Below, in pieces: positions 4,289 through 30,904 of a stretch of 38,720 nt of DNA. Position numbers and translations under genes: made by a program. This stretch comes from Candidatus Binataceae bacterium (GTDB lineage: Bacteria; Desulfobacterota; Binatia; Binatales; Binataceae): positions 1 to 38,720 of the forward strand of contig JAMXLL010000175.1 of NCBI GenBank assembly GCA_024281015.1, given 5' to 3'. The notes beneath the pieces are model-generated. The model was not told the origin of the DNA. It did not search any database and was given only the letters and a program-made list of their open reading frames with translations. Numbering within the stretch: the stretch's first letter is position 1; every line of letters starts with the position of its first letter.

Positions 4289-4369
4289 CTAGGCTCGTAG
4301 CATGGCATCGGCGCAGCGCAGCCACTCACTGCAAGCTGAGGCCCGTTGCGAGCCCGGCCCGAGGATCTG

Positions 4370-6291: not shown

Positions 6292-8499
6292 ATGACAAAC
6301 GGCGAGCTCAGAATGGTATACCTTAAAGGCTGTGCCCAGGGCGCCTCGGCGTTCGCCGTTTACGCGGCACTTTCTATTCTGATATTCGGTCTGCCGGTCA
6401 TCAGGGCTCTATCGCAGGTTTACATAGGGGGCGGTACAGACCCTATCTGTCATATCTGGGCAATCGCATGGTGGCCCTATGCGATTGCGCATCGGCTCAA
6501 TCCATTAATCACACACGCGTTATGGGCGCCCGCCGGCTATAACCTTGTCTGGGGCACGGATATTCCGGGGCCCATCCTGCTTTTTTTCCCGATCACCAGA
6601 ATTTTCGGAGCAGTAGTTTCGTACAATTTGCTCTGCCTGCTAGCACCTGCAGCGAATGCGGCTTCGGGCTTTCTGCTCTGCCGGTACGCATGCGAACGAT
6701 TCTGGCCCGCCCTGGTGGGCGGCTATATTTTTGGGTTTTCGCCCTACGTGATTTGCCACATGCTGGGCCACCTCGTCTTGATCCTCATCTTTCTTATCCC
6801 GTTCGCCGCGTACATTACGTTACTGCGGCTGAAAACAAGGATCGGGCGGCCTGGATTTGTTACGGCCCTGTTCTTGGTCCTGCTGTTTCAATTTCTCAGC
6901 TCGACGGAGATTTTCGCCACCGCGACGGTTCTTGGCGGATCGGCGCTGATACTTGCCTATATGCTTGCCGACGGAGAATCGCGAACGAACCTGATCTCTG
7001 TTGCGAAAGAGGCCGCCTTTGCTTACGCAGTCCTGACTGTAGTTGCTATTCCGTACCTGTATTTCGTGTTCGCCCCGGGTCTGCCGACGCCACCGAATTC
7101 CGCAACCTTTTATTCAAACTACCTATTGAGTTTCGTAGTCCCGCCTCCGGTTCTTTTGTTTGGCCCGCACAGCGTGGGTTTCATATCAGAAAAATTTCTT
7201 AAAGTCGCACCGTGGTGGGAGCAAGCCGGATATCTCGGCCCGGGTCTTCTCACCATAATGTTGCTTTTTGCCTGGTCCTACTGGCGAACAGTCGCTGGTA
7301 AGTTTCTGATCCTGAGCTTTGCACTGGTCGTAATCATGTCTCTGGGCCCTGCGCTCCACACCGGTATAAAACCACGGATGCCGATGCCGTGGCGCTTCTT
7401 TCATATGTTGCCGCTACTCGACGAAGTATTGCCGGGCAGATTGGGGATGTACATGTATCTCATTGTAGCGGTATGCGCCGCCATTTACCTGGCCCGAACG
7501 CCGCTTCCTATATGGCTGAGGATCTTGGGCGCTGGCTTGTCCCTGTTGTTTATCGCGCCGAACTTTTCCATTTGGCGCCACGTGGGGTGGTTTGCACCGT
7601 TGCTTGGTACGCCTGGACTGACCAAAATTCACGTGCCGGATTTCTTCAGCTCAGGGCAATACCGGCAATACTTGGCGCGCGGCGATAACGTCTTGATGTT
7701 GCCCCTTGGCCTGGGCGGCAGTAATGCAGGGATGCTTTGGCAGGCACAATCGGACTTTTATTTCAATACGACGGATTGGTTCGGAGCTGTGGCACCGCCC
7801 GACTCGGGCCGATGGCCCATTATCAAGGCCTTTCACAGCAGCACGACGATAATTGATTTCCGCGAGCAGCTCCAAGGCTTTCTCGGAGGACATCAGGTCA
7901 AGGCGATAATTCTTGACTCAGCAACACCGGGACGTTGGCCGAGCATCCTGTCGGACGCGGGGATGACCTCGGTCTCGGTGGGTGGAGTTTTGTTCTATAG
8001 GGTACCGGGTGCTGTGCTCGCCCTTTTTCGAGGGGCGACAGCCCATCAGATGGCCGAAAAGCATGCCTCGGCTTTGTTCACCGCTCTGGTTTGCGCTGCC
8101 AGGAAGTATGTTGATGCAGGTTATCCGTTGAGCGAACTCACCCTTAATCAAGTCCAACACCTGAAGCTATTTACTCTGCCTGATGACCAGGGCGGTACTG
8201 GTAAACGTGACTCGATTTGGGGCCATAACTTCTGGATTGGGAGTCGCGATGGTCGGATCGACCTCGGAATCGCAGGCAACTATGAAGACCTTCAGTTTCT
8301 GATTGGGAAGTACGGACCCGATGCAGTCCGGGTTTTCTTCCCTTTTCCTAAGCCATTGTCGGAAAGGGGAAAACACGGGAACGGTATCTTGTTAATTTCC
8401 TTCACTCCTGGGGGAGTGCGGCAGGCGGCAAACAAAGCAAACCATCAACAGGGAGCGCAAACAACCGACACCGGGAATAGTGTCGTCGTAAGGCCTTAA
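6292..8499 (+). CDS. Polytopic membrane protein, GT-C-like, first of a tandem pair
   Basis: The protein has 735 residues from ATG 6292. The N-terminal ~450 residues are a series of hydrophobic segments. The first periplasmic loop contains GGTDPICHIWAIAWWPYAI, where the Asp resembles the catalytic acidic position of GT-C enzymes, then HRLNPLITHALWAPAGYNL. The C-terminal ~290 residues are mostly soluble (DNVLMLPLGLGGSN, VKAIILDSATPGRWPSIL). This layout is common among uncharacterised bacterial membrane proteins treated as putative glycosyltransferases. The product is clearly homologous to the next gene along its whole length. Transfer of a sugar from a lipid carrier is inferred and has not been shown for this group. 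It lies 50 bp after the ABC exporter, likely in the same operon. Confidence 0.65.
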   Translation: MTNGELRMVYLKGCAQGASAFAVYAALSILIFGLPVIRALSQVYIGGGTDPICHIWAIAWWPYAIAHRLNPLITHALWAPAGYNLVWGTDIPGPILLFFPITRIFGAVVSYNLLCLLAPAANAASGFLLCRYACERFWPALVGGYIFGFSPYVICHMLGHLVLILIFLIPFAAYITLLRLKTRIGRPGFVTALFLVLLFQFLSSTEIFATATVLGGSALILAYMLADGESRTNLISVAKEAAFAYAVLTVVAIPYLYFVFAPGLPTPPNSATFYSNYLLSFVVPPPVLLFGPHSVGFISEKFLKVAPWWEQAGYLGPGLLTIMLLFAWSYWRTVAGKFLILSFALVVIMSLGPALHTGIKPRMPMPWRFFHMLPLLDEVLPGRLGMYMYLIVAVCAAIYLARTPLPIWLRILGAGLSLLFIAPNFSIWRHVGWFAPLLGTPGLTKIHVPDFFSSGQYRQYLARGDNVLMLPLGLGGSNAGMLWQAQSDFYFNTTDWFGAVAPPDSGRWPIIKAFHSSTTIIDFREQLQGFLGGHQVKAIILDSATPGRWPSILSDAGMTSVSVGGVLFYRVPGAVLALFRGATAHQMAEKHASALFTALVCAARKYVDAGYPLSELTLNQVQHLKLFTLPDDQGGTGKRDSIWGHNFWIGSRDGRIDLGIAGNYEDLQFLIGKYGPDAVRVFFPFPKPLSERGKHGNGILLISFTPGGVRQAANKANHQQGAQTTDTGNSVVVRP

Positions 8500-10736
8500 T
8501 GAACAGTTGCCCGGAAGCCTTGGTTATTAATCGCTGGCGGTCTACCAAGTCACTGATCGGCGTGTCCGCGGCCATGAAGCGGTTGTCACCTAAAATCGGA
8601 ATAGATTTAAGCCAATTCCATTCGATTGTGGCGCTTGCGATCTACTCGGCCTTGTCACTGTTGTATTTTAGCTTCAGGAAATTGCCCGAGTTTTGGACAC
8701 AGTATCGCGGACTCGGCGCGGATCCAACTATTCACATGTGGGCCATGAGCTGGTGGCCTCATGCTATAGCCCATCACCTAAATCCTCTCGTTACAAAAGT
8801 AATCTTTGCACCTGGGGGATATAATTTGGCGCGGGCAGTCAACCTACCGGCGCCGAGCCTGATCATATATCCGGTTACAAGGGCGCTTGGACCGGTCATG
8901 GCTTATAATGTCTTATGCCTGGCCTGCCCTATCGCTGCTGCCTTTGCGGCATTCGTTTTGTGCAGATATATCTGCCGCTGCTTCTGGCCGGCGCTTCTAG
9001 GCGGTTATATCTTTGGGTTTTCGGAGTACGTGCTCTCGGAAATCGGATCCCATCTTTTTCTTCTTTTCATCTTCCCGGTGCCGCTAGTGATTTATCTAGT
9101 GCTCCTGAGAATTAATGGTGCTATCAGTAAATATTTATTCCAATTCCTCTTCATTTTGATACTGGCATTGGAGTTTTTGAGCTCCACTGAGTTATTTGCA
9201 ACGACAACTCTGTTCGGTGCAATGGGGCTGATGCTCTCAGTTGTAATTTTCGCCGAGCAGCGCCCAAAGCTAATAAGCATTGTTGCCGATGTCGCGTGCG
9301 CATATGCAATCTTAGTCCTGGTGCTCTCGCCCTACCTATATTACGTGCTGGCTGGTGGTGTCCCGCAAGTGCTTAATCCCCCGGAAGCGTACTCAAACGA
9401 CGCGCTGGCCTTCATGGTGCCAACTCCTGTTTTGCTGGGCGGCGAGCTATTTAGGCCGGTCAGTGCAGGATTCAGAGATGTCTGGACGGAGATGGCAGCC
9501 TATGTCGGACCTGGCGTGTGGCTCATTATGGTGCTGTTTGCGCGACGGGATTGGGGCAGCAAACCCGGTAAGCTTTTGCTGCTCGCGTTCGGCTTCATTA
9601 TGGTTGCGTCGCTGGGTCCGAAGCTACATTTTAGAGGTACGCCGTACCTTCGATTGCCATGGTTTATCATAGAGAAGCTGCCACTTATCAACCTGGCACT
9701 CCCCGGCCGATTCGGAATGTATCTGTTTTTAGTGGCAGGGCTGATCGTAACGCTCTATCTAAGCTCCTCGGCGAGTGCGCTATGGTTCCGGGTCTCAGCA
9801 GGATTTTGCGCCGTCGCATTTCTGATTCCGAACCTGGCCTTCGTACAAGGAGAGACGACTAGGGTAAACACTCCTGCTTTCTTCCGGACGGGGCTATACA
9901 AAACATATATTTCCCGTGGCGACGTGATATTGATTCTGCCGAACACCATAAACTCAACGAGCCAGGCGTTACTTTGGCAAGCACAGACCAATTTCTATTT
10001 TCGCAGTGTCACTGGATTTTATCTGCCACCCGAGGAGTATCAGCGCTGGCCGATCAGTTCGAGTTTTGTCGATGGTCACAGAATCCCGAACTCCTCGGAG
10101 CAACTCAAGGCCTTTTTGGGCGCGCACGAAGTCAGAGAAATCATCCTGGACGGTGAGTCAGTCGGCTCCTGGCCGCGCATGCTGTCCGAAGCGGGGATGA
10201 CCGGGATTGCTCTGGGCGGGATACGTTTCTATAAAACTCCGCTTGATGTAATAGAGGCGTTTCATGGCGCGACCGCTCACTTGATGGCTGAGAAGGCGGC
10301 TGCAGCGTCTTTTGGCGCCCTCCTAAACGGAGCGAGCCGGTACGTCGATAGCCAGCTCCCGCTGGCCAAGCTCACTCCCAGCGAAGCTCATCGGCTAGGC
10401 CTGCTTGGCGTGTTGCAGGACACGGAGCCTCCGGTGGCCGGCTCCAATTGGTGGAACAATCTCTGGCTCGGGAGTTGGGCGGACCTCGTCGGCATAGGCA
10501 TTTCCGGCGATTATGAAGATCTCGAATTCCTGATTCGCAATTATGGCTCTGAGGCCGTGCAGGTCTTCTTCCCATTTCCACAGAAATGGGAAGAAGACGT
10601 CAACTACGGTGACGGTCAACTCTTGTTTCTTTTCAAGCCGGAGGGACTCCGCCGTGCAACGCGCAACACAATAGCTCCGCGATCTGTCGAGCTCAACGAG
10701 ACGTTAACTCGCGCAACTTCGATGATACACCATTAA
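8499..10736 (+). CDS. Polytopic membrane protein, GT-C-like, second of a tandem pair
   Basis: The protein has 745 residues. ATG 8499 shares its A with the TAA stop of the upstream paralogue (TAATG), so translation is probably coupled; an ATG at codon 26 (MKRLSPKIG) is an alternative. It repeats the upstream gene's architecture: loop GADPTIHMWAMSWWPHAIAHH, then HLNPLVTKVIFAPGGYNL, further helices, and a soluble C-terminal part with VREIILDGESVGSWPRML matching VKAIILDSATPGRWPSIL of the first copy. The conserved Asp in the G-(T/A)-D-P loop is kept in both copies. Both may therefore be active with different donors or acceptors, or they may form a heterodimer. Function is inferred only from fold-level resemblance. 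Confidence 0.65.
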   Translation: MNSCPEALVINRWRSTKSLIGVSAAMKRLSPKIGIDLSQFHSIVALAIYSALSLLYFSFRKLPEFWTQYRGLGADPTIHMWAMSWWPHAIAHHLNPLVTKVIFAPGGYNLARAVNLPAPSLIIYPVTRALGPVMAYNVLCLACPIAAAFAAFVLCRYICRCFWPALLGGYIFGFSEYVLSEIGSHLFLLFIFPVPLVIYLVLLRINGAISKYLFQFLFILILALEFLSSTELFATTTLFGAMGLMLSVVIFAEQRPKLISIVADVACAYAILVLVLSPYLYYVLAGGVPQVLNPPEAYSNDALAFMVPTPVLLGGELFRPVSAGFRDVWTEMAAYVGPGVWLIMVLFARRDWGSKPGKLLLLAFGFIMVASLGPKLHFRGTPYLRLPWFIIEKLPLINLALPGRFGMYLFLVAGLIVTLYLSSSASALWFRVSAGFCAVAFLIPNLAFVQGETTRVNTPAFFRTGLYKTYISRGDVILILPNTINSTSQALLWQAQTNFYFRSVTGFYLPPEEYQRWPISSSFVDGHRIPNSSEQLKAFLGAHEVREIILDGESVGSWPRMLSEAGMTGIALGGIRFYKTPLDVIEAFHGATAHLMAEKAAAASFGALLNGASRYVDSQLPLAKLTPSEAHRLGLLGVLQDTEPPVAGSNWWNNLWLGSWADLVGIGISGDYEDLEFLIRNYGSEAVQVFFPFPQKWEEDVNYGDGQLLFLFKPEGLRRATRNTIAPRSVELNETLTRATSMIHH

Positions 10737-16132: not shown

Positions 16133-17206
16133 TCAAGACGCCGGTCCGGAAGAATAGAACCACAGCGTCCAAAGGCCATAGAGATAAGGAGTAGAGATTG
16201 CTGTCGATGAGGGACACGATGAACCAGGGGTCCATGGCGGGCATGCCATCGTTATCGCGTATGACGAGGTGCCAGCTGGGCTTGCGCCCGGTAAGAAACC
16301 ACTAATTGTATTATTGGCATAAACCGCATTGAATTGGTCGGCCACATAATTGGTCAAATTTGCCAAGCCGTTGCCTATCGCCGGCCGCTCCTCAACCCAT
16401 TCGGCGGAATCGCCTTGGAAAATTATGCCTGGCGGAGGATTAAACGCGTACGAGGCCGCCTGCCCGAGGGTAAGATTCGCGAGATAGGCATGCCCAAAAG
16501 GCGGCGTACTTGTGTACCAGACTTCCGCGGCCATCAGGTCACCCTCCTGTACCGCGGGGACGCTCACTCTGACCGCCGCGTAGGGATACCATTCGATCCA
16601 GGCCGAATAAAACTTGGCTTGTGCTGGACTTGAGCAGTAAGCATCCGCTTCAGTGCCGGCCTGCAGCACGTCGTTTGAGCTCAGCCCATCGAACCCGGCC
16701 CATTGGGAAGAATAATCCCAGGAGCCGTCGCACACTCCGAAGGGCTGCTGTGCCACCGGCACCACCCATTCTGAGGAAACAAAAGAGTTGTCATACGTGA
16801 AAGTGCCGGCGGCGGCCCCGACCGCGTAACCGCTCCAATTAAGACTGGTTAGCGCCACCGTACCATTTTTGAGAATTCCGACTCTGGCGGCCTGTCGGAT
16901 TGGACCGTGATACATCTTAGTCGGCCGCAAGGTGCCATTGGCGGGGCGTGGCACCGCTACAAGCTTTTTCCAATGGCGAAAGGCTGCTGGCGCCTTTCGC
17001 GGATCAGGCCGAGGAGGAATACCGTAATTGGCCAGCTCGGCATCCGAGGCACCCAGTGGCTCGAAATGCGGAGGGAGTTGAGGATATTGTATAACGGTTT
17101 GAGCGATGCTCTGATCAGGTGCAACACCCTCTGGAGGTGGACTTCCAGCTATAATCAGCGAATTACTCGCAAACAAGGCGACAACCAAAACCAAGCCAGC
17201 CAGCAC
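16133..17206 (-). CDS. Secreted G1-family (eqolisin-like) glutamic endopeptidase
   Basis: The protein has 357 residues. GTG 17206 is preceded by an excellent Shine-Dalgarno (AAGGGAGGA, five bases before the start); the nearby upstream ATG is out of frame. Residues 1-21 form a signal peptide. Residues ~48-90 (ASDAELANYGIPPRPDP) match the propeptide seen in bacterial members. The mature domain starts near NWSGYAV (123-129), with SSEWVVP, QWAGFDG (168-174), LQAGTEAD and SAEWVEERP. The family uses a Gln/Glu catalytic dyad; Q168 and E269 sit at those positions. The family is best known from acid-secreting fungi (scytalidoglutamic peptidase), and activity at acidic pH is expected. The gene is convergent with the GT2-methyltransferase fusion and stands alone, so it is probably independent of the glycan genes. 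Confidence 0.88.
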   Translation of the reverse strand: MLAGLVLVVALFASNSLIIAGSPPPEGVAPDQSIAQTVIQYPQLPPHFEPLGASDAELANYGIPPRPDPRKAPAAFRHWKKLVAVPRPANGTLRPTKMYHGPIRQAARVGILKNGTVALTSLNWSGYAVGAAAGTFTYDNSFVSSEWVVPVAQQPFGVCDGSWDYSSQWAGFDGLSSNDVLQAGTEADAYCSSPAQAKFYSAWIEWYPYAAVRVSVPAVQEGDLMAAEVWYTSTPPFGHAYLANLTLGQAASYAFNPPPGIIFQGDSAEWVEERPAIGNGLANLTNYVADQFNAVYANNTISGFLPGASPAGTSSYAITMACPPWTPGSSCPSSTAISTPYLYGLWTLWFYSSGPAS

Positions 17207-17611
17207 CGCGGTCCTCCCTTCATGCTAAGTTCATTTGTATATTTATACTGCCTCGCGCCTCTGTTTGCGCAAATTGGATACCACTGCAAGAATGAGCCGT
17301 AGTTTATAGATGGCCGGTAGAGATAGCTAGACCGGGATCGGGACTCTCTCGCGGAATGGTTGTTGACTTCGCGGTCGATTAGAAAAACACAATGAGGAAG
17401 CAGGCGCGTCAGGACCGAGGTTCTGAAAGCGCGTCATCATGGATATCTTACTTGACGCAGCCTTTGTTCGGTGCTTCCTTTGCGAGCTGTCGGCGTGGTT
17501 ACGCCGCTCCAGCCGTTGGATAGCAAGGTATGACGGCAGCCTGGATTTTGCCGTGCACGGCGGCAGCGATGCTCACGTGTGATTCACAGGCGCTCAGCTT
17601 CAGGGATTTTG
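17207..17611 (+). other. Divergent intergenic region between peptidase and FkbM operon
   Basis: This is about 400 bp holding the start region of the minus-strand peptidase and the leader of the plus-strand FkbM operon. On the minus strand an AT-rich stretch with TATAAATATAC (about 17237-17247) is the best -10 candidate for the peptidase. A 47-codon frame (17439-17582, plus) ends just before the FkbM gene but has no recognisable character. Nothing else is supported. Confidence 0.4.
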
Positions 17612-18868
17612 ATGAACTTCGTCTCATATGCCCAGAACCAGGAAGATGTGATGCTGTATCGGGCACTGCGCGATGTGAAGAATGGCTTTTACATCGATGT
17701 TGGAGCGCAGGATCCGGTCATCGATTCGGTGACCAAGGCCTTTTATGATCGCGGTTGGCATGGCATCAACATCGAACCGAGTGACGAATACTACCAAAAG
17801 CTTCAGATCGAACGCCCTCACGACATCAATTTGGCCACCGCGATCGGCATGCAACCAGGGGTGGTAACTTTCTACGAGGTCGCGCATACCGGTCTTTCCA
17901 CCACCAGTGCGGAGTACGCGCAACGCCATTCGCTAGCCGGTCACCAGATAGAGGCCCGTGCGGTGCCTTGCACGACTCTCGATAGTATTTGCGCCGAGCA
18001 TGGGGTCGGGACAGTTCATTTCCTGAAGATCGATGTAGAAGGGTCGGAGCGCGGCGTATTGGAAGGATTTTCATTTGCAACGATTCGTCCCTGGCTGGTC
18101 ATTGTTGAGGCGACCGAACCCAACAGCAATCGTCAACTCTTCACCGAATGGGAAAATCTGCTCCTCAACAGAAATTACCGGTTTGTCTACTTCGATGGAC
18201 TGAACCGCTTTTACGCAGCCGAAGAGCAGGCGGACCTGGCCCGACATTTTTCGTGCCCGCCCAACTGGTTCGATCAGTACGTCAGCTATCAGCTCTGGCA
18301 GACCCGGGCGGAATTGGAGGAGGTGAGAGCTGCCGAGAACAGCGCCTTGGTCAATTCTCTAAACCATATGTTGGCCGAGGTGCAAAGGCTGAGCGAGACC
18401 ATGGCCACCCGAGAGCTGACTCTTCAGTCCGCGATCAGCAATTTGCAAGACGCAGTAAAGGAACGCGAACAGCAGCTCGGCAGTCTCCAGGAGCTGACGG
18501 CCCAGCGTGAACGCCAGCTTGGCAGCTTGCAGGAATTGATGGCACAGCGTGATCGGCAGCTCGGGGCTTTGCAGGCAGATGTCGCAGCAGCCAGGAGACG
18601 CTTAAAATCGATCCGATCATCGGTCTCCTGGAAAATCACCAGTCCCCTACGCGAAATCAGGCGCGTCTTGCTCCGCGTTGCTGATATATTCCACCGGTCA
18701 AAACCCGCAGGTCCGCTACCCTCCGCGTTGGCCAACTCAGAGACGGCGGCGCCAGACGAGATTGCTGGGGGCCTGACTGAGCCCGCGCGGTTGCTTTACC
18801 GCAATTTGAGTGAGGCGGTGGCGCTTCAGCAAATCAAAGAAAAACCGCCAGCTGAGGAACATGTATGA
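17612..18868 (+). CDS. FkbM-family methyltransferase with C-terminal coiled coil
   Basis: The protein has 418 residues. ATG 17612 has AGGGA five bases upstream; an in-frame GTG at 17579 adds 11 residues and is less likely. Residues 1-235 are an FkbM/Methyltransf_21 domain: VSYAQNQEDVMLYRAL at the start, SAM motif YIDVGAQDP (27-35), acidic INIEPSD, and FLKIDVEGSE (138-146), the hallmark post-motif. Residues ~240-345 are a heptad-like coiled coil with three 14-residue repeats, followed by SVSWKITSPLRE, a short motif found at the base of coiled coils in capsule and O-antigen enzymes. FkbM proteins O-methylate sugars or polyketides, so sugar methylation is likely here. The stop overlaps the next start by ATGA, making this the first gene of the GT operon. 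Confidence 0.85.
   Translation: MNFVSYAQNQEDVMLYRALRDVKNGFYIDVGAQDPVIDSVTKAFYDRGWHGINIEPSDEYYQKLQIERPHDINLATAIGMQPGVVTFYEVAHTGLSTTSAEYAQRHSLAGHQIEARAVPCTTLDSICAEHGVGTVHFLKIDVEGSERGVLEGFSFATIRPWLVIVEATEPNSNRQLFTEWENLLLNRNYRFVYFDGLNRFYAAEEQADLARHFSCPPNWFDQYVSYQLWQTRAELEEVRAAENSALVNSLNHMLAEVQRLSETMATRELTLQSAISNLQDAVKEREQQLGSLQELTAQRERQLGSLQELMAQRDRQLGALQADVAAARRRLKSIRSSVSWKITSPLREIRRVLLRVADIFHRSKPAGPLPSALANSETAAPDEIAGGLTEPARLLYRNLSEAVALQQIKEKPPAEEHV
18473..18598 (+). repeat. Three tandem 42-bp repeats encoding a 14-residue coiled-coil unit
   Basis: Units at 18473-18514, 18515-18556 and 18557-18598 encode QLGSLQELTAQRER, QLGSLQELMAQRDR and QLGALQADVAAARR. The 14-residue period equals two heptads, so gain or loss of one unit would keep the coiled-coil register. 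The DNA copies have diverged at synonymous positions, so the array is not recent. Confidence 0.85.
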
Positions 18869-21800
18869 GGGTGGTGGTCGACCTCCAGGCCTTTCCACCA
18901 CGTGCCGGTGGCAATGGCGTCAACCGCTATTCTGCCGCGCTCGTCAGCGCGATGCTTAGACACCCGGGTGATCATGAGGTTAAAGTTGTTGTAACCCACT
19001 CGTCGGAAGAGCTCATTGAAGAGCTGCAGGACCGCTTCCCGGATCTGTTCCGCAGGGGAGCTTTCCATCTTTCGGCTATTCCACTTATAAGCACTGCTGC
19101 TGCGGCTCCTCGCTGGCATCGCATGGCGGCAGAACTTGTGCGGGAACACGCGCTTTTGCAGTTCCAGCCGGACGTTGTCCTCTGCGCTCCGCTGACCGGA
19201 CCGGCCGACGTCGTGACACTGTCAGAGCTACGTTGCGTCGCAATTCCTACTGCCATCGCGCTGTCGGCGGCGGCCGCTGCGACTCCTCCTGGAGCCGCGA
19301 CCGAGACGGGTGTTGACACTAGCGCCTCCCCAAACGGGCTCCACGTCAAGCCACGCTGGACAGCCGAACTGGTGCTGGTTCCATCTCAGTACTCCAGGAG
19401 CCTGCTTGTGGACGCCGTGGAGCTGTCGCCCGATCGTGTGTGGGTTGTTCAACCTGCGGTGAACGAGCAATTCAGCCCGGCGGTGGCGTCGGACGCGCAA
19501 ATCCAAGCTGTGAGAACGCGATTCGCAGCAGGCCAGGAATTTATCCTGTGCATCAATACTGGCGCTTCACGTGGCGGTGTCGAGCAACTGCTGGAAGCGT
19601 TTGGATTATTGCCGCGGCAAGTGCGCGAGGTAAATCGGCTGGTAATAGTGGATGCTGGCAATCCCGGCGAAGAGGAGCGACTGCTCCGGCTCGGGCACTC
19701 GAAAGGCTTGGCTGATAGCGAGTTGGTAATCGCCAGCGACATCCGCGACGACGAACTCGCAGAGCTGTACAAGAGTTGTAAACTGCTGGTTGTCCCGGGT
19801 TGGGACGCTGCGGCTGTCCAGCGTGCATCGGAGGGGATGAGCTGTGGCACCGCGGTGTTGGGCCCGGATCATCCCCAAATTCGAGAAATCATCGGGCGCG
19901 GCGATGCTCTTTTCGACGCCGGGTCGGATCGTCACGTTAGCGACAAGATTTACGAAATCCTAACACGCTCGCAATTGCGCGAAGAATTGAAGTTACATGC
20001 CATAGGACAAGTGCAGAGGTTCTCTGCACAAACGAGTGCCCGCCTGGCGTTGGAAGCTTTGGAAAGGCTGCATACGTCGCGCTCGTCGAAGTCCAAACGA
20101 GCATCGGTCCCGGCGAAAGCGCGGCCTCGAATGGCCTACGTGTCGCCGTTGCCGCCGGAACGATCCGGAATAGCCGACTATAGTGCTGAGCTGCTGCCAG
20201 AGCTCGCCAGGTACTTTGACATAGAGCTGGTCACAGACCTTTCCGAAATTGCCGACCCAGTTTTGGATCGCCAGTTTCGCCGAATACTATTCAGGGACTT
20301 CGAAAGAACAGCGCGCGACTACGACGCCATTCTCTATCATATCGGTAACTCGCCGTTTCATGTCCGAATACCATCGTTGCTCGAGCGTTATCCCGGCACT
20401 GTTGTCTTGCACGACTTCTTCTTGAGCCACCTTTTTAATCGGCTCGAATCCACTGACGGCATATCTTTGTGGCGCAATCTTTACATGTCTCACGGTTACT
20501 CTGGCTTGATCGCGCGTGCGCGCGAAGGTTCCGAGGCGGCGCTGTGGGCGTATCCTTGCAATCTGGCGGTGCTTCAGCACGCTGCTGGGGTAATTGTCCA
20601 TTCGGAGCACGTCGCACACTTGGCCCGTCAATGGTTCGGAATACGGACGGAGCAATGGAAGGTTATTCCCCAGCTGCGCAGAATGCCGCGGGGTGCGAAT
20701 CGAGAGAAGGCCCGCAAGGCGCTAGGTATTCCCCATGAGACATTCTTGGTTTGTTCGTTCGGATTCTTGTCCGAAGCCAAATTAAACGATTTGCTCTTCC
20801 GAAGTTGGATCGCGTCCAGCGTATCCCGCCAGCCAAACTGCTGCCTGGTGTTTGTCGGCGGCGACGGGTTCGGCCGGCCCTATCAGGTCAACGGCCTGCC
20901 CTCGAGCCAGATCCGAGCGACTGGATACGTAAGTAAGCAAGAATACGACCTGTATCTGGCCGCGGCCGATGTCGGTGTTCAGTTGCGGAGCGATCTCTCC
21001 CGAGGCGAAACCCCTCGTTCCGTGCTCGATTGCATGGCGCATGGAATGGCGACAGTGGTGAATTCGCACCCGGCATTAATGGATCTGCCAGACGACTCGG
21101 TGCTTCGGATGAAGGAGAGCAGCGAGCAGGAATTAATCGCTGCTTTTGAGACTTTGTATCGGGAACCTGGATTGCGGGCGGCGCTTGGACGCCGTGCACA
21201 ACAGTACGTGAAAGCTACACGCAGTCCTGCGATTATCGCGAGCAAATATGCAGAAGCAGTCAGGCAATCCGTGGACCACGACCCTGTTAGCCTGACGAAC
21301 CGCATTGTTTCGAAAGGCGCAGAGCTCGTCGCCAGCGCGCGGCCTTCCAATGAGGAGTTAGCGTCAGTTGCAGCTAGTATCGCGGAAAACACTAACCGTA
21401 ACGGCATTCCTCAGCTGCTGGTCGATGTTACGATCCTCGTCATGGTGGGAGATTACCGGACTGGGATCCAGCGAGTTACTCGAGGGATTCTGGCTCATTT
21501 GCTGGAGAACCCCCCTCCAGGCTGGCGGATAGAGCCGGTTTATCGCCGCCATCGTGAAACCTACCGCTATGCTCGCAGCTTCGTCGGTAAATACCTGGGT
21601 CTGGAACGGTTCACTCTTGAAGATGCGGCGGTCGCGGTGAATCCAGGAGACATTTTTTTAGGCTTGGATTGGGATGCGGGAATAGCAATCGATCAGCGGG
21701 CAGCGAATTGGGTGCGACACCACCGGCAGCGCGGGATGAGAACCGTCTTCACGGTCTACGATCTGTTGCCGCTGCAGCACCCCGAGTGGTTTAAACCCGA

Positions 21801-22701
21801 CATGCCCTCGGCATTTCACGGTTGGTTATCGCTAATCTGCCGGCTGACCGACGCGTTCGCCTGTATCTCCCGTGCCGTGGCTGATGACATGCTGAAATGG
21901 CTCGAGGAGTTTTCGGCGCTCGCGCCTCGCGCCTTTGATATTGGCTATTTTCAGTTGGGGAGTGACATCGAGTCGAGCTGGGCAAGCCAGGGACTGAGCC
22001 CGGATAACAAGCAGCTCATGGCCACCCTGAAGGGACGAGAGGTTCTGCTGATGGTCGGAACGGTGGAGCCACGCAAGGGCCATGGCCAGGCGCTGGCAGC
22101 CATCGAAAGTCTGTGGGCGGCGGGCGAGAAGATAAACCTGGTTATCTGTGGCCGCCAGGGCTGGATGGTCGATTCACTCGCGGGACGCCTTCGATCCCAC
22201 CCTGAGCTGGGGCGGCGGCTGTTTTGGCTGGAGCAGGCCAGTGATGAGGTCCTGCAGCAACTGTACTCGACGGCCTCCGCCCTGTTGATGGCGTCCGAAG
22301 GGGAAGGGTTCGGCTTGCCCTTAGTTGAGGCAGCGCACCACGCTTTGCCGATTATCAGCCGCGACGTGCCAGTGTTTCGGGAAGTCGCTGGTGAAAACGC
22401 CTTTTACTTCTCTGGCAACGACCCTACTAAGTTGGCCGCTGCATTGGTGAGGTGGTTCGAGCTTTATAGGCGTGGGGAACACCCCAGGTCTAGCAGGCCG
22501 CCGACGTGGCAGCAGAGCACACAGCAACTGTTACGGATCGCGCTGGGGGGAACTGCATATCGCCGCTGGCAGGGTTCACGGACCCGTGTCAGCCGGTTGT
22601 CTACTCCTGATTGGTATGAGAACGGTGCGATCGATCATGTTGTGTCCGCCCGGCGAGCGGCATCAGATCGCGAGCCCCACCGCACAATCGAAATCGACTA
22701 G
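18865..22701 (+). CDS. Giant multidomain glycosyltransferase with three GT-B (GT4-like) modules
   Basis: The protein has 1278 residues. ATG 18865 overlaps the FkbM stop and has GAGGA six bases upstream. Module 1 (1 to ~400) starts MRVVVDLQAFPPRAGG. Module 2 (~420-800) starts PRMAYVSPLPPERSGIADYS and contains SRGETPRSVLDCM. Module 3 (~850-1230) starts LVDVTILVMVGDYRTGIQRV and contains EGEGFGLPLVEA (E1147 and E1155 make the EX7E motif of retaining GT4 enzymes). In module 1 the equivalent of the first Glu is Ala315 and GFG reads AAV. Known multi-module GTs (WbdA-like) build repeat units or polymers of O-antigens. Here module 3 is the safest catalytic unit, module 2 follows its own family pattern, and module 1 may be structural. 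It acts in the cytoplasm, probably at the membrane on a lipid-linked acceptor. Confidence 0.88.
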   Translation: MRVVVDLQAFPPRAGGNGVNRYSAALVSAMLRHPGDHEVKVVVTHSSEELIEELQDRFPDLFRRGAFHLSAIPLISTAAAAPRWHRMAAELVREHALLQFQPDVVLCAPLTGPADVVTLSELRCVAIPTAIALSAAAAATPPGAATETGVDTSASPNGLHVKPRWTAELVLVPSQYSRSLLVDAVELSPDRVWVVQPAVNEQFSPAVASDAQIQAVRTRFAAGQEFILCINTGASRGGVEQLLEAFGLLPRQVREVNRLVIVDAGNPGEEERLLRLGHSKGLADSELVIASDIRDDELAELYKSCKLLVVPGWDAAAVQRASEGMSCGTAVLGPDHPQIREIIGRGDALFDAGSDRHVSDKIYEILTRSQLREELKLHAIGQVQRFSAQTSARLALEALERLHTSRSSKSKRASVPAKARPRMAYVSPLPPERSGIADYSAELLPELARYFDIELVTDLSEIADPVLDRQFRRILFRDFERTARDYDAILYHIGNSPFHVRIPSLLERYPGTVVLHDFFLSHLFNRLESTDGISLWRNLYMSHGYSGLIARAREGSEAALWAYPCNLAVLQHAAGVIVHSEHVAHLARQWFGIRTEQWKVIPQLRRMPRGANREKARKALGIPHETFLVCSFGFLSEAKLNDLLFRSWIASSVSRQPNCCLVFVGGDGFGRPYQVNGLPSSQIRATGYVSKQEYDLYLAAADVGVQLRSDLSRGETPRSVLDCMAHGMATVVNSHPALMDLPDDSVLRMKESSEQELIAAFETLYREPGLRAALGRRAQQYVKATRSPAIIASKYAEAVRQSVDHDPVSLTNRIVSKGAELVASARPSNEELASVAASIAENTNRNGIPQLLVDVTILVMVGDYRTGIQRVTRGILAHLLENPPPGWRIEPVYRRHRETYRYARSFVGKYLGLERFTLEDAAVAVNPGDIFLGLDWDAGIAIDQRAANWVRHHRQRGMRTVFTVYDLLPLQHPEWFKPDMPSAFHGWLSLICRLTDAFACISRAVADDMLKWLEEFSALAPRAFDIGYFQLGSDIESSWASQGLSPDNKQLMATLKGREVLLMVGTVEPRKGHGQALAAIESLWAAGEKINLVICGRQGWMVDSLAGRLRSHPELGRRLFWLEQASDEVLQQLYSTASALLMASEGEGFGLPLVEAAHHALPIISRDVPVFREVAGENAFYFSGNDPTKLAAALVRWFELYRRGEHPRSSRPPTWQQSTQQLLRIALGGTAYRRWQGSRTRVSRLSTPDWYENGAIDHVVSARRAASDREPHRTIEID

Positions 22702-25063
22702 GCTTGGCCATCACGCGGTGTTTCCGAATCTGCCCATTGAGCCGTCTGTCAATACGCGGCCTGCGGCGCGCGTCTGCATCGCCACCTACGAGATCCTCGG
22801 ACCGTCGAAAAACGGCGGCATCGGTACCGCATATCACTCGCTCGCAACCACCCTGGCTGCGGCCAATCATCGCGTGACGATTCTGTATCTTTGGGCGGGG
22901 CGTTCAGGCGAGGCAGAGATGCGATACTGGGAAAGCCAGTTTCGCGAGTTGGGCATTACATTTGTCCCGCTTCGAGCCTCGTCAGGAATCCACGGGGTGC
23001 CCGACTGTATGCATGTGGCGTTCGATGCGCACTCGTGGCTGCGAAAGCAGCAATTCGACATCATTCATTTTCCCGAGCTTCACGGTCACGCTTATTACTG
23101 CGTCCTGGCCAAACGCCAGGGATTGGACTTCCATCGCACAACCTTGTGCATCGGCACTCACAGTCCCATCTCCTGGATCCGCGAGCAGAATAAAGAAGGT
23201 CCGTATAGCCCTGACGAACTGGAGATGGATTTCATGGAGCGCCGATGTGTGGCGCTGGCCGACGTCGTTGTGAGTCCGAGCCAGTATATGCTCGGTTGGA
23301 TGCGACGAAATGGGTTTGTATTGCCCGCACAGTGTTACGTGCAACAAAATATTGCGCCGTCTCAATCAGTCGCAGCGATGAACTGGAAGAAGAGGGAACC
23401 CTTCCAGAAGACCCCGGAGTTGGTTTTCTTCGGGAGGCTCGAAGCACGTAAGGGTATCAGCCTATTCTGCGACGCGCTTGATCTTTTGAAACGCGAGAAC
23501 CTCCCACCGTTTGGCGTTACTTTCCTTGGAAAGAATGGCCGGATAGACCGGCAGGATGGAGCCGGCTATATCAGGGCGCGGGCGGAACAATGGACATTTC
23601 CTTGTCGGATATTGACCGATTACGGGCGCGACGCGGCATTACAGTTCCTCGCCGAAGATGCGGGCCGAATCGCGGTCATCCCCTCGTTCGAAGATAATTT
23701 GCCGAATACCGTGATGGAATGTTTGGCGGTCGACATTCCTTTCCTGGCGGCCAAAAGCGGAGGAATTCCTGAGCTGATTGCCCTTTCCGACGTCGAACGG
23801 ACGACTTTCCCGCCGGATAGCGCCCAACTCGCTCGGCGTCTGACTCTCGCAATTCGGAATGGGGTGGCTGTGGCCAAGCCCGCGATCGAACCCGAGGAGA
23901 ACCGGAGCAGATGGTTAAATTGGCATGCCGCCTTGGCCTCTGATCCCGACCACCATGGGGAACTGAGCGCCGGCCGACAATCCGCACAACCGCTCGTCAC
24001 CGTCTGTTTGAATTACCGAGGCAACTGCGAGTTGCTGCAGCACAGCCTGGACTCGGTGCGGCGCCAGACCTATGAACGTCTTGAAGTTCTACTCTGTGAC
24101 TGCACGGCTGAGAAAGAGGAGGGGCAGCTACAGCGCGTCGCCCAGAATTTCGACTCTAAGAATTGGCGAATACTTCGGACTGGTGCCAGCTGCAACAGCG
24201 TGCCCATAGCTGAGGCAACGGGCGAATATATATTGTTTATCGAAGGATCCGATTATCTAGCCCAGGATGCTATCAGCGTTTTCGTCAGCGTGGCCAACCA
24301 AATCAGGGCGGATGTCCTGACCTGCTTTCTTGCTCATTTTAGCGGCGCGGAAGAACCTGCGGAAGAGAACTTGCTGGGGCATTGTCTGTTCCTGGGCTGC
24401 GCCGCGGTTTCCGGTGTGTTTCGCAATTACTTCGGCCAGAGGGCTGTCTTCGTCAAAAAAGATACCCTCATGCGATTGGGGGGCTTTCCGGTAAGCTCGC
24501 CACGTGAGATCGCCGACTGGGAATTCTTGGCACGAGCCGTTCTTATGGATTCTCGAATGGACGTCGTCCCGGTCCCACTTGCGTGGTGTCCCATCTTTGA
24601 TCAATCAGGCTCAAACGTTCCGGTAGTGTATCACCGGCAATTGCAGGCCATTATTCCGTATGCGCAAGCAATGCCACCGGCGCTACGGGACCTCCCCAAG
24701 GCTGCGATGACAATGGGACTGCACCATAACCATCTGTTAAGGCGCTTTTATGACAGTCCCGCACGCACCATTCTTCAGCGGCTCGCCATAGACGGCAAGG
24801 ACCACAGTTGGGAGCAGCTCATACCCGACGAAGGCGCGTTGTTCTTGGCGCTGAACCGAATGCCCAGGCGGGCTCGGAAGAAAATAACGTCCATCCTTGA
24901 CGCGTGGCTGGATTATTCACAGGCTCGAGCAGCGCTCCCGCCAGTCGGCATGCAGCGTATATCACACATCGCGCGCCAATTGCTCAGAGGCCACTATCAC
25001 CGGTATGGCCACGGCTTCGGTAGCGCGCTTCGAGATCTGCGCAAACCTTCGCAAACCACATAA
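22637..25063 (+). CDS. Fusion glycosyltransferase: GT4 module + degenerate GT2 module
   Basis: The protein has 808 residues from ATG 22637, which would overlap the previous gene by 65 bp. ATG 22616 and GTG 22718 (just after that gene's stop) are alternatives, and none has a clear Shine-Dalgarno. The GT4 module starts at RVCIATYEILGPSKNGGIG (45 on) and continues through FFGRLEARKGI and SFEDNLPNTVMECLA, with donor-site glutamates present. From residue ~452 a GT2 fold begins (PLVTVCLNYRG, DSVRRQTYERLEVLLCD), but the usual DDGSTD reads CDCTAE (487-492) and the usual D-A-D-D reads E-G-S-D (536-539). The GT2 half may therefore not bind metal or nucleotide normally. The last ~150 residues are helical. 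The gene is third in the operon with the FkbM and triple-GT genes and is likely part of the same chain-building machinery. Confidence 0.82.
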   Translation: MLCPPGERHQIASPTAQSKSTRLGHHAVFPNLPIEPSVNTRPAARVCIATYEILGPSKNGGIGTAYHSLATTLAAANHRVTILYLWAGRSGEAEMRYWESQFRELGITFVPLRASSGIHGVPDCMHVAFDAHSWLRKQQFDIIHFPELHGHAYYCVLAKRQGLDFHRTTLCIGTHSPISWIREQNKEGPYSPDELEMDFMERRCVALADVVVSPSQYMLGWMRRNGFVLPAQCYVQQNIAPSQSVAAMNWKKREPFQKTPELVFFGRLEARKGISLFCDALDLLKRENLPPFGVTFLGKNGRIDRQDGAGYIRARAEQWTFPCRILTDYGRDAALQFLAEDAGRIAVIPSFEDNLPNTVMECLAVDIPFLAAKSGGIPELIALSDVERTTFPPDSAQLARRLTLAIRNGVAVAKPAIEPEENRSRWLNWHAALASDPDHHGELSAGRQSAQPLVTVCLNYRGNCELLQHSLDSVRRQTYERLEVLLCDCTAEKEEGQLQRVAQNFDSKNWRILRTGASCNSVPIAEATGEYILFIEGSDYLAQDAISVFVSVANQIRADVLTCFLAHFSGAEEPAEENLLGHCLFLGCAAVSGVFRNYFGQRAVFVKKDTLMRLGGFPVSSPREIADWEFLARAVLMDSRMDVVPVPLAWCPIFDQSGSNVPVVYHRQLQAIIPYAQAMPPALRDLPKAAMTMGLHHNHLLRRFYDSPARTILQRLAIDGKDHSWEQLIPDEGALFLALNRMPRRARKKITSILDAWLDYSQARAALPPVGMQRISHIARQLLRGHYHRYGHGFGSALRDLRKPSQTT

Positions 25064-27639: not shown

Positions 27640-28437
27640 TCAATCTATATCTATACGATGGCCGACTTCACTTTCCTCATACGCGACGCCTTGCCCGGTC
27701 GAAAGCTCCTCCCAACGCCTGAGGGCGCTTGCGCGGCTTAGCCAATAGGGCCGAACAGAATAATCCAATACCTCAAAGAAACGCTTGTGCCGTTTGTATA
27801 TCGTGCGGGCGTCACCGTAGACGATCAGCTCCCGCCATAATCCAGGCCGCCCCTGCCAGCCATGTCTATTGGGCAAGCCCCTGAAGAATGGCAGGTTGAA
27901 TTCATCCACTGCTCCATTTACATCCAAAGCCTCAGACTCGAATGCCCGAGCCAGGTTAAGCAGCGTCTGATGCGGCCGCTGCACCAACTGCTCGTAACGA
28001 ATTTTGAGGGCCTCAGGGTCATGCCACCATTGGTAGGAAATGCTCAGCACATTCTCGGCTCCCCAGCTCGTTGCATATCGGAGGAATTCGTTCGATGTAG
28101 GCGGTTGCCCAATTAGGCTGGGCGGAATTTCGGCGTTTCCTTCGAGCCAGCGCGCCGTCAGCGGTTCATGGCGGATGAAATTCAGGATAGAGACCAGCAC
28201 ATCCAGCGGATGACGCGCGATTACGATCATCTTGAATCCATAATCGTGCAAGAAGCGCTGGAATCCCGGTTCACGATACCAATGCAGTTGCAGAATCGCG
28301 CGATCCGGAATCGCTTTGAGTTCCGCGTAGTTGTGCACAGCCAGCTGCTCAAGCTTCAGGATGTTGCCGAGCACCGATCTCACCCATGTGTTGCCGCATC
28401 TGGGTGTACTAATTACGGCGACCCTTAGGCTAGCCAT
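27640..28437 (-). CDS. Sulfotransferase domain protein
   Basis: The protein has 265 residues from ATG 28437. The frame extends 38 codons further upstream, but that would run into lptD and adds nothing domain-like. MASLRVAVISTPRCGNTWVR places the PAPS 5'-phosphosulfate loop (STPRCGNTW, 10-18) right at the N-terminus, as in cytosolic-type sulfotransferases. MIVIARHPLDVLVSILNF is the 3'-phosphate-binding segment with its R and S. IRYEQLVQRPHQTLLNLA is the (R/Y)YE.L...P......L block common in this family. Transfer of sulfate from PAPS to a glycan is likely. The gene lies 46 bp downstream of lptD on the same strand, so the two are probably co-transcribed, which points to LPS or a co-exported glycan as the target. 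No terminator was found on this strand. Confidence 0.82.
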   Translation of the reverse strand: MASLRVAVISTPRCGNTWVRSVLGNILKLEQLAVHNYAELKAIPDRAILQLHWYREPGFQRFLHDYGFKMIVIARHPLDVLVSILNFIRHEPLTARWLEGNAEIPPSLIGQPPTSNEFLRYATSWGAENVLSISYQWWHDPEALKIRYEQLVQRPHQTLLNLARAFESEALDVNGAVDEFNLPFFRGLPNRHGWQGRPGLWRELIVYGDARTIYKRHKRFFEVLDYSVRPYWLSRASALRRWEELSTGQGVAYEESEVGHRIDID

Positions 28438-28483
28438 TCGCAGTGCTGAGCGAGGCGCTAACCGTACCCTTACCTGCTCAGTA

Positions 28484-30904
28484 TCAGTAGCTGGTCGGGA
28501 GAACCCCGAGGTGTGACCGAAAGGGCATCCGCAGAAAAGGACTCTTTCCAACGGAGCCGATGCCGCCTAGCGTGACCTGGAACTGAAACTGCGTCTCGCT
28601 AGGATTGACCGTGTTGGTGATGCCCATATCGAAGGCCCAGCAATCGCACGGTGCTTTGATTCGCACGCCATATTCGGCCGTCAGCAATTGATGGGTTGCA
28701 AAGTCGTACGAAGGTGCAAACAGAACGGCCACCCGCCTGAACAACTCATAGTAAGCTCGTGCGGTCAGAAACTGATTGAACCCGGCATTGACGCCCGGCT
28801 TCGACTGAGGGCCGGGGCCAATATAAATGTATCCGACTTGGAGCGAGGAGTCGGTCGAGACTTTGCTCTTGCGCGTCCACCACGGCTGAAAGTTCAGATA
28901 GGTGCTGGCGTAGTGGATGCTCGCAACCTGCGGTGAATAAGTGAGCTGGCCTCCGATTGCCAGCGTGTTGGCCGGGAAGGCCGTCGCGACCAGGCCAAGG
29001 TCTGACAAGCGCGAGCTGCCCTGTGCGACTGCATGGTTGGTGTCGTAGGCCTGCATCACCGAGAGTCGCAAAATCTCCTCAATCGTAGAACCATTGATGA
29101 AGCTGCGCGCCATAAAGGGATGCATTGCGAAATCGCTCTCATCTTCAGCGGTGGGCTCCTGCTGACCTTCTCCCTGCGCGGTCCGGTGTTGAGCCAATTT
29201 CAGGAAGATCCTGGAAGTTATGCCGTAAGTGATCAGGCTGCGGCCCTCGACCCGGTCGGTCTCATCAAACAGGGGAAGCGAGCCTTGATCATAATTGGGC
29301 ACGTAATCGTAAGTCACAAACGGTTCAATGGTGTGCTTGAGTTTCTCGGCAGGCTCCCAATTAAGGTCGTAGACCTTCTCAAGCTCAGTGGCGATGCCGG
29401 CGCTCCCATAGATCATTTCGCGCGATTGGAATCCTCCTTCGGCGAGAGGACCCAGCGAAAGTCCATTGTTGTACTTGCGTCCGTCTTCCCCTACGGGCGT
29501 TATCTCGATTTGGTGCCCGGAGGTGTCATACATCGTTTCGCGTAAGCCCAACCTGCCGAAGCCGTATAGATAATCCCCCAAGCGCCATGGAAGAGTGACG
29601 CGCGGATTCGCATCAAGCCGCAGCCCGGATTGACCATGGCGCCGGTAGAAATTGTCACCACTAATGTCGTAATCAGTGTAAAGCAGCCCGCCGAGCAAAT
29701 CCTTACGGCCACTCATCTGGATTTCGGGCAAGGTCTGCAGGGCAAACGGCTGATATTGAATGAGATCCTGATTGTAGATTCCGCCAAATCTCAGGTAGCT
29801 GTTCTGATAGGTTTGAAGCAGCCCAAAATCTGACATTGCGTTGCGCATCAGTTGAAACTGGCTGGGATAGAAAATGCCGGCGGCAGCATTGCGCGAAAGC
29901 GTCCAGACGTTGAGCTCGCGGAGCAGCAGGGGATCGCTTAGGGTCATGCCGTCGCCATAAGCCACCAGACTATCCGTAATGTGCTGTCGCGCCATGGCAA
30001 TCAGGTCATAGCGGTCAACCGGGATGAATGGATTAGCAATCTGAGTGTCGACTATATCGTTCTGCCGGTTTTGCGAACTACGCAGGCTCTCATTGTAGAA
30101 GCCGCCGTCGAGCACGAAATAATTGTCCGGGCCGGTGACCAGCCGATACTCGCCCAAACCCCCGACCCGCTGCGAGGTTTCGGTATCGACAGCGAAGCTG
30201 GCATCAGAGCTCCGGTTGATTGCCCAAAAATAGGGCTGCAGGTATTGAAAGCCCCGCAATCCAGACTCGCCGAGCCGCGGCGTGAGAAATCCCGAATGGC
30301 GGCTCGTGTCAGCCGGAAAGATTGCATACGGTGAGTACAACACTGGATATCCGAGAACGTTGAAGTGCGCCCGACGGGCGGTCGCGCTATCTCCAACCTT
30401 CACATCCATTTGGTCGGCCGAGATACTCCAGTCAGGTGTGCCAGGCTCCGACCCGCAGGTGGTGAATAAGCCGTCCAACACTGAATAGCGCTGACCCGCA
30501 AACTTCTTTATCCGCGCGCCCTGGATGCGAAAAGTTTTGTTGAAATTGCTGATGGAGGCGTCGCTCAGGTCACCGGTCTCCTGCTGGAGATTCAGATGTC
30601 CCTCTCGCGCGTGGATTTCCGTCAAGGGATCGACCAAATGCACGCGGCCTTTGGCATGCAGTTCACGCTTGCCGCGGGCGAGATCGATTTCGTCGGCCGT
30701 GAGAATACTCGCCTGCTGGGCGACCGCGGCATCGCCGGTAACAACAAAGGTGTTGGTTTTGTAATCGTAAACGAAATTTCTTCCGGTTACTTGCAGCGGG
30801 CCTTGATGTTGGTGTTGGACAATCGACGAAATCGGCGGCGCGGCCCATACACCCGCTGACAGCACGCTAGCTCCCGCCAGGAAAAGAATTATCGGCCGCC
30901 GCAA
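28484..30904 (-). CDS. lptD: LPS-assembly outer membrane protein LptD
   Basis: The protein has 806 residues from TTG 30904, with GAGGG six bases upstream. It has a signal peptide (cleavage near VWA-APP, 21), an LptA/OstA-like beta-jellyroll (~35-140), and then the LptD barrel domain: LFTTCGSEPGTPDWSI (~147-161), YSPYAIFP, GFLTPRLGESGLRGFQYLQPYFWAIN and many alternating beta strands to the C-terminus. LptD, with the lipoprotein LptE, inserts LPS into the outer leaflet of the outer membrane. In E. coli, Cys31/173/724/725 form two disulfides; here only Cys150, Cys753 and Cys755 are seen (C-D-C-W near the end), so only one long-range disulfide is possible. The gene shares its strand with a sulfotransferase 46 bp downstream. 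Confidence 0.9.
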   Translation of the reverse strand: MRRPIILFLAGASVLSAGVWAAPPISSIVQHQHQGPLQVTGRNFVYDYKTNTFVVTGDAAVAQQASILTADEIDLARGKRELHAKGRVHLVDPLTEIHAREGHLNLQQETGDLSDASISNFNKTFRIQGARIKKFAGQRYSVLDGLFTTCGSEPGTPDWSISADQMDVKVGDSATARRAHFNVLGYPVLYSPYAIFPADTSRHSGFLTPRLGESGLRGFQYLQPYFWAINRSSDASFAVDTETSQRVGGLGEYRLVTGPDNYFVLDGGFYNESLRSSQNRQNDIVDTQIANPFIPVDRYDLIAMARQHITDSLVAYGDGMTLSDPLLLRELNVWTLSRNAAAGIFYPSQFQLMRNAMSDFGLLQTYQNSYLRFGGIYNQDLIQYQPFALQTLPEIQMSGRKDLLGGLLYTDYDISGDNFYRRHGQSGLRLDANPRVTLPWRLGDYLYGFGRLGLRETMYDTSGHQIEITPVGEDGRKYNNGLSLGPLAEGGFQSREMIYGSAGIATELEKVYDLNWEPAEKLKHTIEPFVTYDYVPNYDQGSLPLFDETDRVEGRSLITYGITSRIFLKLAQHRTAQGEGQQEPTAEDESDFAMHPFMARSFINGSTIEEILRLSVMQAYDTNHAVAQGSSRLSDLGLVATAFPANTLAIGGQLTYSPQVASIHYASTYLNFQPWWTRKSKVSTDSSLQVGYIYIGPGPQSKPGVNAGFNQFLTARAYYELFRRVAVLFAPSYDFATHQLLTAEYGVRIKAPCDCWAFDMGITNTVNPSETQFQFQVTLGGIGSVGKSPFLRMPFRSHLGVLPTSY

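Follow-up and report, generated by a model that had tools for sequence, protein, structure and literature searches.

A WbdA-type polymerase homologue from a Candidatus Binataceae bacterium with three glycosyltransferase modules, the first of them probably non-catalytic

Introduction

In polymerase-terminator systems for O-polysaccharide synthesis the operon is laid out as wzm, wzt, terminator and polymerase (PMC11231755). The WbdA of Escherichia coli O9a and Klebsiella pneumoniae O3 (L048:8155-10677) is a two-module GT4 polymerase in which, according to PMC5529442, the N-module makes 1-2 linkages, the C-module makes 1-3 linkages and the region contacting the terminator WbdD lies in the C-module. 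The coiled coil of WbdD acts as a molecular ruler whose end recruits WbdA (PMC5082667, PMC3482155). The WbdA of E. coli O8 and K. pneumoniae O5 (L058:5296-8937, 1213 aa) has three modules, reported to serve one linkage each (PMC11231755). Here we analyse a 38,720-nucleotide stretch of DNA (contig JAMXLL010000175.1 of a Candidatus Binataceae bacterium; the window, below) which encodes a homologue of these polymerases, also with three glycosyltransferase (GT) modules, of which module 1 has probably lost its catalytic function in this genus. An earlier note on the sequence had suggested that module 1 might have become a scaffold or chain-length module, or else that each module makes a different linkage of the repeat unit.

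Like the query, the O9a/O3 WbdA is encoded beside a coiled-coil terminator, and the two proteins share homology between its N-module and module 1 (26% identity) and between its C-module and module 3 (43%). Unlike the query, it has no module of the type that we call RGET, keeps the EX7E motif intact in both modules, has Wzm/Wzt in its operon and has a known donor, GDP-mannose. The O8/O5 WbdA shares with the query its three modules and its position after a methyltransferase-coiled-coil WbdD of the same length class (425 aa, against 429 aa for the query's partner), yet it has a canonical N-module, the two remaining modules show no more than a distant relationship to the query's modules 2 and 3, and the WbdD methyltransferase is not of the FkbM type found in the partner. 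A parallel for module 1 alone is WsaF, from the Geobacillus S-layer glycan system, which is likewise without the first EX7E Glu, having Pro in its place, and is described as an active rhamnosyltransferase; unlike module 1, it is a single-module enzyme that retains the second Glu and the phosphate-binding residues (PMC2943079). WsaE of Geobacillus is a fusion of a methyltransferase and two GT domains (PMC2943079).

Results

Module architecture

The open reading frame at 18865-22701 (+) encodes a protein of 1278 aa in which three separate stretches match Pfam Glycos_transf_1 (E = 2e-49, all above cut-off), in agreement with the earlier note's description of three GT-B/GT4 modules in one protein. 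The layout is that of WbdA-type polymerases: several GT modules, the N-terminal one WbdA-N-like and the C-terminal one WbdA-C-like. The module limits used were aa 1-405, 417-815 and 846-1225.

18865..22701, + strand: three-module GT4-type polymerase homologue, 1278 aa (open reading frame, Pfam, full-length relatives)
18865..20079, + strand: module 1 (aa 1-405), WbdA-N-type GT-B, catalytically eroded (identity to relatives, conserved columns)
20113..21309, + strand: module 2 (aa 417-815), RGET-type GT-B, intact by the standard of its family (alignment, AlphaFold model)
21400..22539, + strand: module 3 (aa 846-1225), WbdA-C-type GT-B, canonical (identity, conserved columns)

Erosion of module 1

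Donor-site and catalytic motifs were compared in a table of 28 module-1, 24 module-2 and 31 module-3 copies. The altered sites of module 1 were as follows.

18913..18930, + strand: glycine loop, NGVNRY against RGIGRY in the family; DDLDRY in the sister species (motif table)
19264..19278, + strand: site of the family Y/H-D-L-I-P motif (aa 134-138), now Ser and alanines (motif table, column count)
19570..19575, + strand: diphosphate-binding R-K, with R236 kept and K237 now Gly; Ala-Gly in the sister species (motif table, column count)
19807..19833, + strand: EX7E site, with A315 (first Glu lost), AAV for GFG and E323 kept (motif check)

Direct reading of residues W313-D314-A315-A316-A317-V318 bore out the earlier observation that the first Glu is Ala315 and that GFG reads AAV; the second Glu is retained as E323 (A315+8). 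Module 1 aligns with the E. coli O8 WbdA (30% identity, E = 4e-44) with no gaps across the motif region, so Ala315 faces the first Glu, which has been truly replaced and not displaced by a gap. Among 395 genomes sampled evenly from the phylum, only one further member of the order, the sister species, carries such a protein (61% identical overall); the sister has Pro at the first-Glu position and has also lost the second Glu and both phosphate-binding residues. Neither species retains the glycine loop, the Y/H-D motif or the diphosphate-binding Lys. Of the conservation that the earlier note had proposed to check among homologues, the loss of the Glu is thus common to query and sister, whereas the exact change to Ala is not.

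Outside the genus these motifs are well kept: EX7E is intact in 24 of 26 module-1 copies, and no copy that covers the regions concerned has lost the G-I/V-G loop (24 copies) or the Y/H-D motif (25 copies). With family-conserved columns defined by a threshold of at least 88%, the query kept 33 and the sister 21 of the 63 in module 1; in leave-one-out counts other module-1 members kept at least 53 of 63-71, with one exception (L012, 44/63). Module 1 can still be recognized as a member of its family, with 24-31% identity to copies outside the genus and a Pfam Glyco_transf_4 match above cut-off, and the module-1 family profile matches MshA (E = 1.6e-27).

Absence of the first Glu, which the earlier note had treated as a mark of inactivity, does not by itself suffice, because WsaF is described as active with Pro at that position (PMC2943079). 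What makes the case for inactivity is that the donor-site motifs have been lost together. In PglH, activity is abolished when either phosphate-binding residue is mutated to alanine, and turnover falls ~300-fold when either Glu is (PMC5792488). As judged from sequence, module 1 has probably ceased to be catalytic in this genus, and the earlier proposal of a real inactive module is upheld for the lineage, the sister being in the same state with further lesions and relaxed evolution.

The pattern of divergence points in the same direction. Identity between query and sister is 38-40% in module 1, as against 71% in module 2 and 75% in module 3, and the ratio of module-1 distance to module-2+3 distance is 3.10 for this pair, compared with 0.99 +/- 0.16 (maximum 1.49) for 78 other pairs. 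Non-synonymous divergence (dN) for modules 1, 2 and 3 is 0.61, 0.19 and 0.16, while four-fold-site (silent) divergence is similar in the three (0.64, 0.71 and 0.78). Since dN is raised in module 1 only and silent divergence is not, a mutation hotspot, foreign replacement and assembly error are all argued against; foreign replacement was rejected also because query and sister are grouped in each of the three module trees. The gapless motif alignment and the independent sister genome, which is also without the canonical motif, led us to reject a shift in the alignment or a sequencing error. The branch ancestral to the species pair has a length of 1.31 in module 1, 0.73 in module 2 and 0.51 in module 3, and the two share the module-1 substitutions K237G, N238G, R to H and Q to P; the shared substitutions together with the longer ancestral branch indicate that the loss began before the species split.

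Modules 2 and 3

The motifs on which these modules were judged are given below.

21001..21030, + strand: module 2 motif R713-G-E715-T-X5-D722 (conserved as RGETSxxVLDCM in relatives)
22072..22077, + strand: module 3 diphosphate-binding pair R1070-K1071, in GTVEPRKG (motif table)
22303..22329, + strand: module 3 EX7E, E1147...E1155 (motif check)

A clear EX7E is present in module 3 only (E1147-G-F-G...E1155), as had been reported, and the acidic residues of module 2 are indeed spaced otherwise (R713-G714-E715-T716...D722, that is E-X6-D). The view of module 2 as unusual or degenerate did not survive comparison, since RGET-X5-D, although it is not the EX7E of GT4, is the norm of its own family: RGET is kept in 18 of 22 module-2 relatives and GET in two more, and the query's module 2 keeps 64 of 78 family-conserved columns. 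The motif also occurs in a stand-alone RGET-type glycosyltransferase of 412 residues on phage contigs (L090-L092, three identical stretches from IMG/VR), where the protein at L090:4977-6212 is 42% identical to module 2. An AlphaFold model of module 2 (predicted local distance difference test, pLDDT, 71) matched GT-B structures of the retaining GT4 enzymes MshA, HepE and BshA; a sequence search of the PDB with module 2 alone found no match, whereas a profile search did. In the C-terminal module of the O8 WbdA, TGESASGAV is aligned to RGET (hhalign E = 7e-4, at a probability of only 27%). Module 2 is predicted to be a working RGET-type GT-B glycosyltransferase. Module 3, which keeps 64 of 66 family-conserved columns, would likewise be active.

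Relatives and eroded modules in other lineages

The sample of the phylum yielded a handful of full-length relatives with the same module order and 36-40% identity. Relatives of the same architecture are sparse across Pseudomonadota, with further ones in other orders, and tblastn of plasmids found plasmid-borne examples in Rhizobium, Novosphingobium, Jannaschia and Azospirillum. A pattern scan of genome contigs with the full protein turned up the sister species alone. No match was found when viral contigs were scanned with a relative or when E. coli genomes were searched with a relative's DNA; WbdA was reached by the plasmid tblastn. Many relatives carry the gene behind wzm, wzt and a coiled-coil methyltransferase (WbdD or FkbM type), and because wzm-wzt-terminator-polymerase operons are their usual setting we take the query protein to be a homologue of WbdA-type O-polysaccharide polymerases. 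Ten homologues (L008, L009, L011, L012, L028, L038, L049, L050, L051 and L052) have the query's module order at 33-40% identity over nearly the full length and lie mostly beside wzm, wzt and a WbdD- or FkbM-type terminator; most differ from the query in having three intact modules. No characterized member of this same-order group was found in the literature searched.

A full-length eroded module was found in two lineages besides this genus, once in module 1 and once in module 2. In L012 (900-5870) it is module 1, with DDFN for EGFG and PN for RK, and its branch is 1.11 long as against 0.70 and 0.78 in the other modules. In L028, a three-module relative (L064:7173-10931, - strand), it is module 2, from which the glycine loop, HD, K and RGET have all been lost (the sites read NNRIRAY, NDF and SAEASINILD in L028); the L028 branch is lengthened in module 2 only (1.24, as against 0.50 and 0.56). 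This genus and L012, each with an eroded module 1, and L028, with an eroded module 2, are the three independent cases behind the reading that such polymerases repeatedly inactivate one GT-B module and keep it as an acceptor-holding or positioning part, a general device for changing the repeat unit while leaving the polymerase whole. We regard this generalization as tentative and would sooner doubt it than rely on it.

Several relatives depart from the three-module plan. The protein at L012:900-5870 is a four-module relative with an extra copy of module 3 at its C-terminus. At L070:6275-11545 (-) there is a mosaic of 1757 residues, with modules 1 and 2 and an N-terminal fragment of module 3, followed by a middle and a C-terminal module like those of the E. 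coli O8 WbdA; this mosaic is evidence of module shuffling in these polymerases, and partial module remnants occur at recombination joints in other family members also. A Sphingobium relative (L055:6001-9915) retains only the N-terminal half of module 3, after which comes a DXD sugar-binding glycosyltransferase domain (PF04488). The proposition that module 3 is never lost was rejected, being contradicted by truncated module-3 remnants in Rhodovastum, Sphingobium and L070.

Neighbouring genes

Synteny between query and sister covers the entire window. The genes nearest in function to the polymerase homologue were the following.

17579..18868, + strand: FkbM methyltransferase with coiled coil and SWKITSPLR (18626-18652), WbdD-like candidate chain terminator (Pfam, motif)
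22472..25063, + strand: GT4-GT2 fusion, given as the longest frame, with the actual start probably 22616 or later (conserved beside the polymerase gene in the sister)
4346-6241: MsbA-like ABC exporter, 88% identical to the sister copy, far above its neighbours

The candidate terminator gene lies upstream of the polymerase gene and overlaps it by 4 bp. Its product matches Pfam FkbM at residues 40-202 and also has a coiled-coil match, and the O8 WbdD shares its coiled-coil/SWRIT tail (SWRITQPLR, E = 0.002). A SWKITSPLR-type motif is present in 12 of 17 partner proteins outside the genus, the O8 WbdD included, and the pairing of terminator and polymerase genes has been kept both by the sister and by the wzm-wzt operons of relatives. 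On these grounds the FkbM protein is the putative chain terminator here.

Neither the window nor the syntenic region of the sister contains Wzm/Wzt with a carbohydrate-binding Wzt. Since the locus has no Wzm/Wzt and the genome no Wzt_C domain, the protein is better called a WbdA-like polymerase homologue than a member of a Wzm/Wzt O-antigen system; a Wzm/Wzt pair without a carbohydrate-binding domain may sit elsewhere in the genome. The MsbA-like exporter is found in this polysaccharide locus without Wzm/Wzt. The sugar may be mannose or a GDP-6-deoxyhexose, as hinted at by a gmd gene at another place in the genome and by gmd/rmd next to several of the relatives.

Among the other genes of the window, 6292-8499 and 8499-10736 encode adjacent paralogous multi-membrane proteins (42% mutual identity, no Pfam match), of which a homologue (31%) is encoded near the polymerase in L060:16177-18000; DUF6311 was tested as a relative of these two and not supported. 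A Peptidase_A4 (acid protease) gene at 16133-17206 (-), 76% identical in the sister, stands between a GT2-methyltransferase gene and the terminator-polymerase pair. Within the polysaccharide region, at 27640-30904 (-), the ends of an LptD gene and a sulfotransferase-domain gene overlap by ~70 bp; another sulfotransferase is encoded at 32813-33754, and the glycan may be sulfated.

Discussion

From these sequence comparisons we consider it likely that the protein is a WbdA-type homologue in which modules 2 and 3 work and module 1, dead since the ancestor of the genus, has been kept as a structural or acceptor-holding part. A lipid-linked O-polysaccharide would be built in the cytoplasm by the polymerase and capped by the FkbM coiled-coil methyltransferase encoded next door. 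Modules 2 and 3 would extend the chain, module 3 resembling by homology the alpha-1,3 module of the O9a WbdA. Module 1, the homologue of the alpha-1,2 module of that enzyme, would have lost its donor-binding and catalytic residues in the genus ancestor and would persist as a folded, in-frame module that transfers no sugar and most likely serves as a structural or acceptor-holding part. The linkages of the repeat unit would then be limited to those formed by modules 2 and 3 and to whatever other enzymes, the neighbouring GT4-GT2 protein for example, may contribute. Our working hypothesis is that module 1 is a scaffold; the chain-length role raised in the earlier note is a more speculative one.

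Several points weigh against this interpretation. The eroded state of module 1 has been seen in two species only. The AlphaFold model of module 1, built from two sequences, has a pLDDT of 45 and is unusable, so its folded state rests on the Glyco_transf_4 match and the 38% interspecies identity. The open frame of module 1 is no proof of function, because stops there would remove modules 2 and 3, and the dN/dS of ~0.27 (NG86) is a rough value with dS near saturation. In addition, no Wzt_C domain was found in a genome that is ~92% complete, and the polymer may not be exported as in O8/O9a.

The most serious competing explanation is that module 1 is dead weight, a relic that is translated only since the start codon precedes it and has no structural role. 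Its strongly relaxed divergence, its N-terminal position with a frame held open by the downstream modules and the plain recombination remnants of modules in other family members would all fit. On the other hand, module 1 retains many core positions as well as its interspecies identity of 38-40%, its dN/dS, rough as it is, suggests that some constraint remains, and a shift of the start codon could have shed an N-terminal module, which neither species has done. We think a mere relic unlikely, and the scaffold is favoured over it only weakly. Continued enzymatic activity of module 1 through a divergent active site, in the manner of WsaF, appears highly improbable: the query keeps the second Glu and Arg236, and WsaF itself is described as active without the first Glu (PMC2943079), but the sister has neither Glu and neither phosphate-binding residue, the glycine loop and Y/H-D motif are lost from both species, and at none of these sites do the two species share an alternative motif.

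Still harder to credit is a polymerase with three active modules, each making one linkage of a trisaccharide repeat as is reported for the E. coli O8 WbdA (PMC11231755). Three intact modules are indeed found in most of the query's relatives, but in this genus module 1 is without donor-binding and catalytic residues, so the rule of one active module per linkage, which the earlier note had offered as an alternative, probably fails here for module 1. Artefacts of sequencing, assembly or alignment, or replacement by a foreign domain, can be dismissed for practical purposes: both assemblies are drafts (that of the window with 5% contamination), but the independent sister genome is in the same state with synteny across the whole window, silent-site divergence is similar in the three modules and no gap runs through the motif.

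WbdA-type polymerases are a model for how a repeat unit is encoded, with one module for each linkage. If module 1 is a likely non-catalytic part retained alongside modules 2 and 3, a dead module in a natural three-module polymerase would mean that the number of linkages cannot be read from the number of modules. It would also offer a natural test of the roles that a non-catalytic module may have in holding the chain, spacing the active sites or contacting the terminator. The parallel erosion of different modules elsewhere in the family suggests a route by which diversity of surface polysaccharides may arise.

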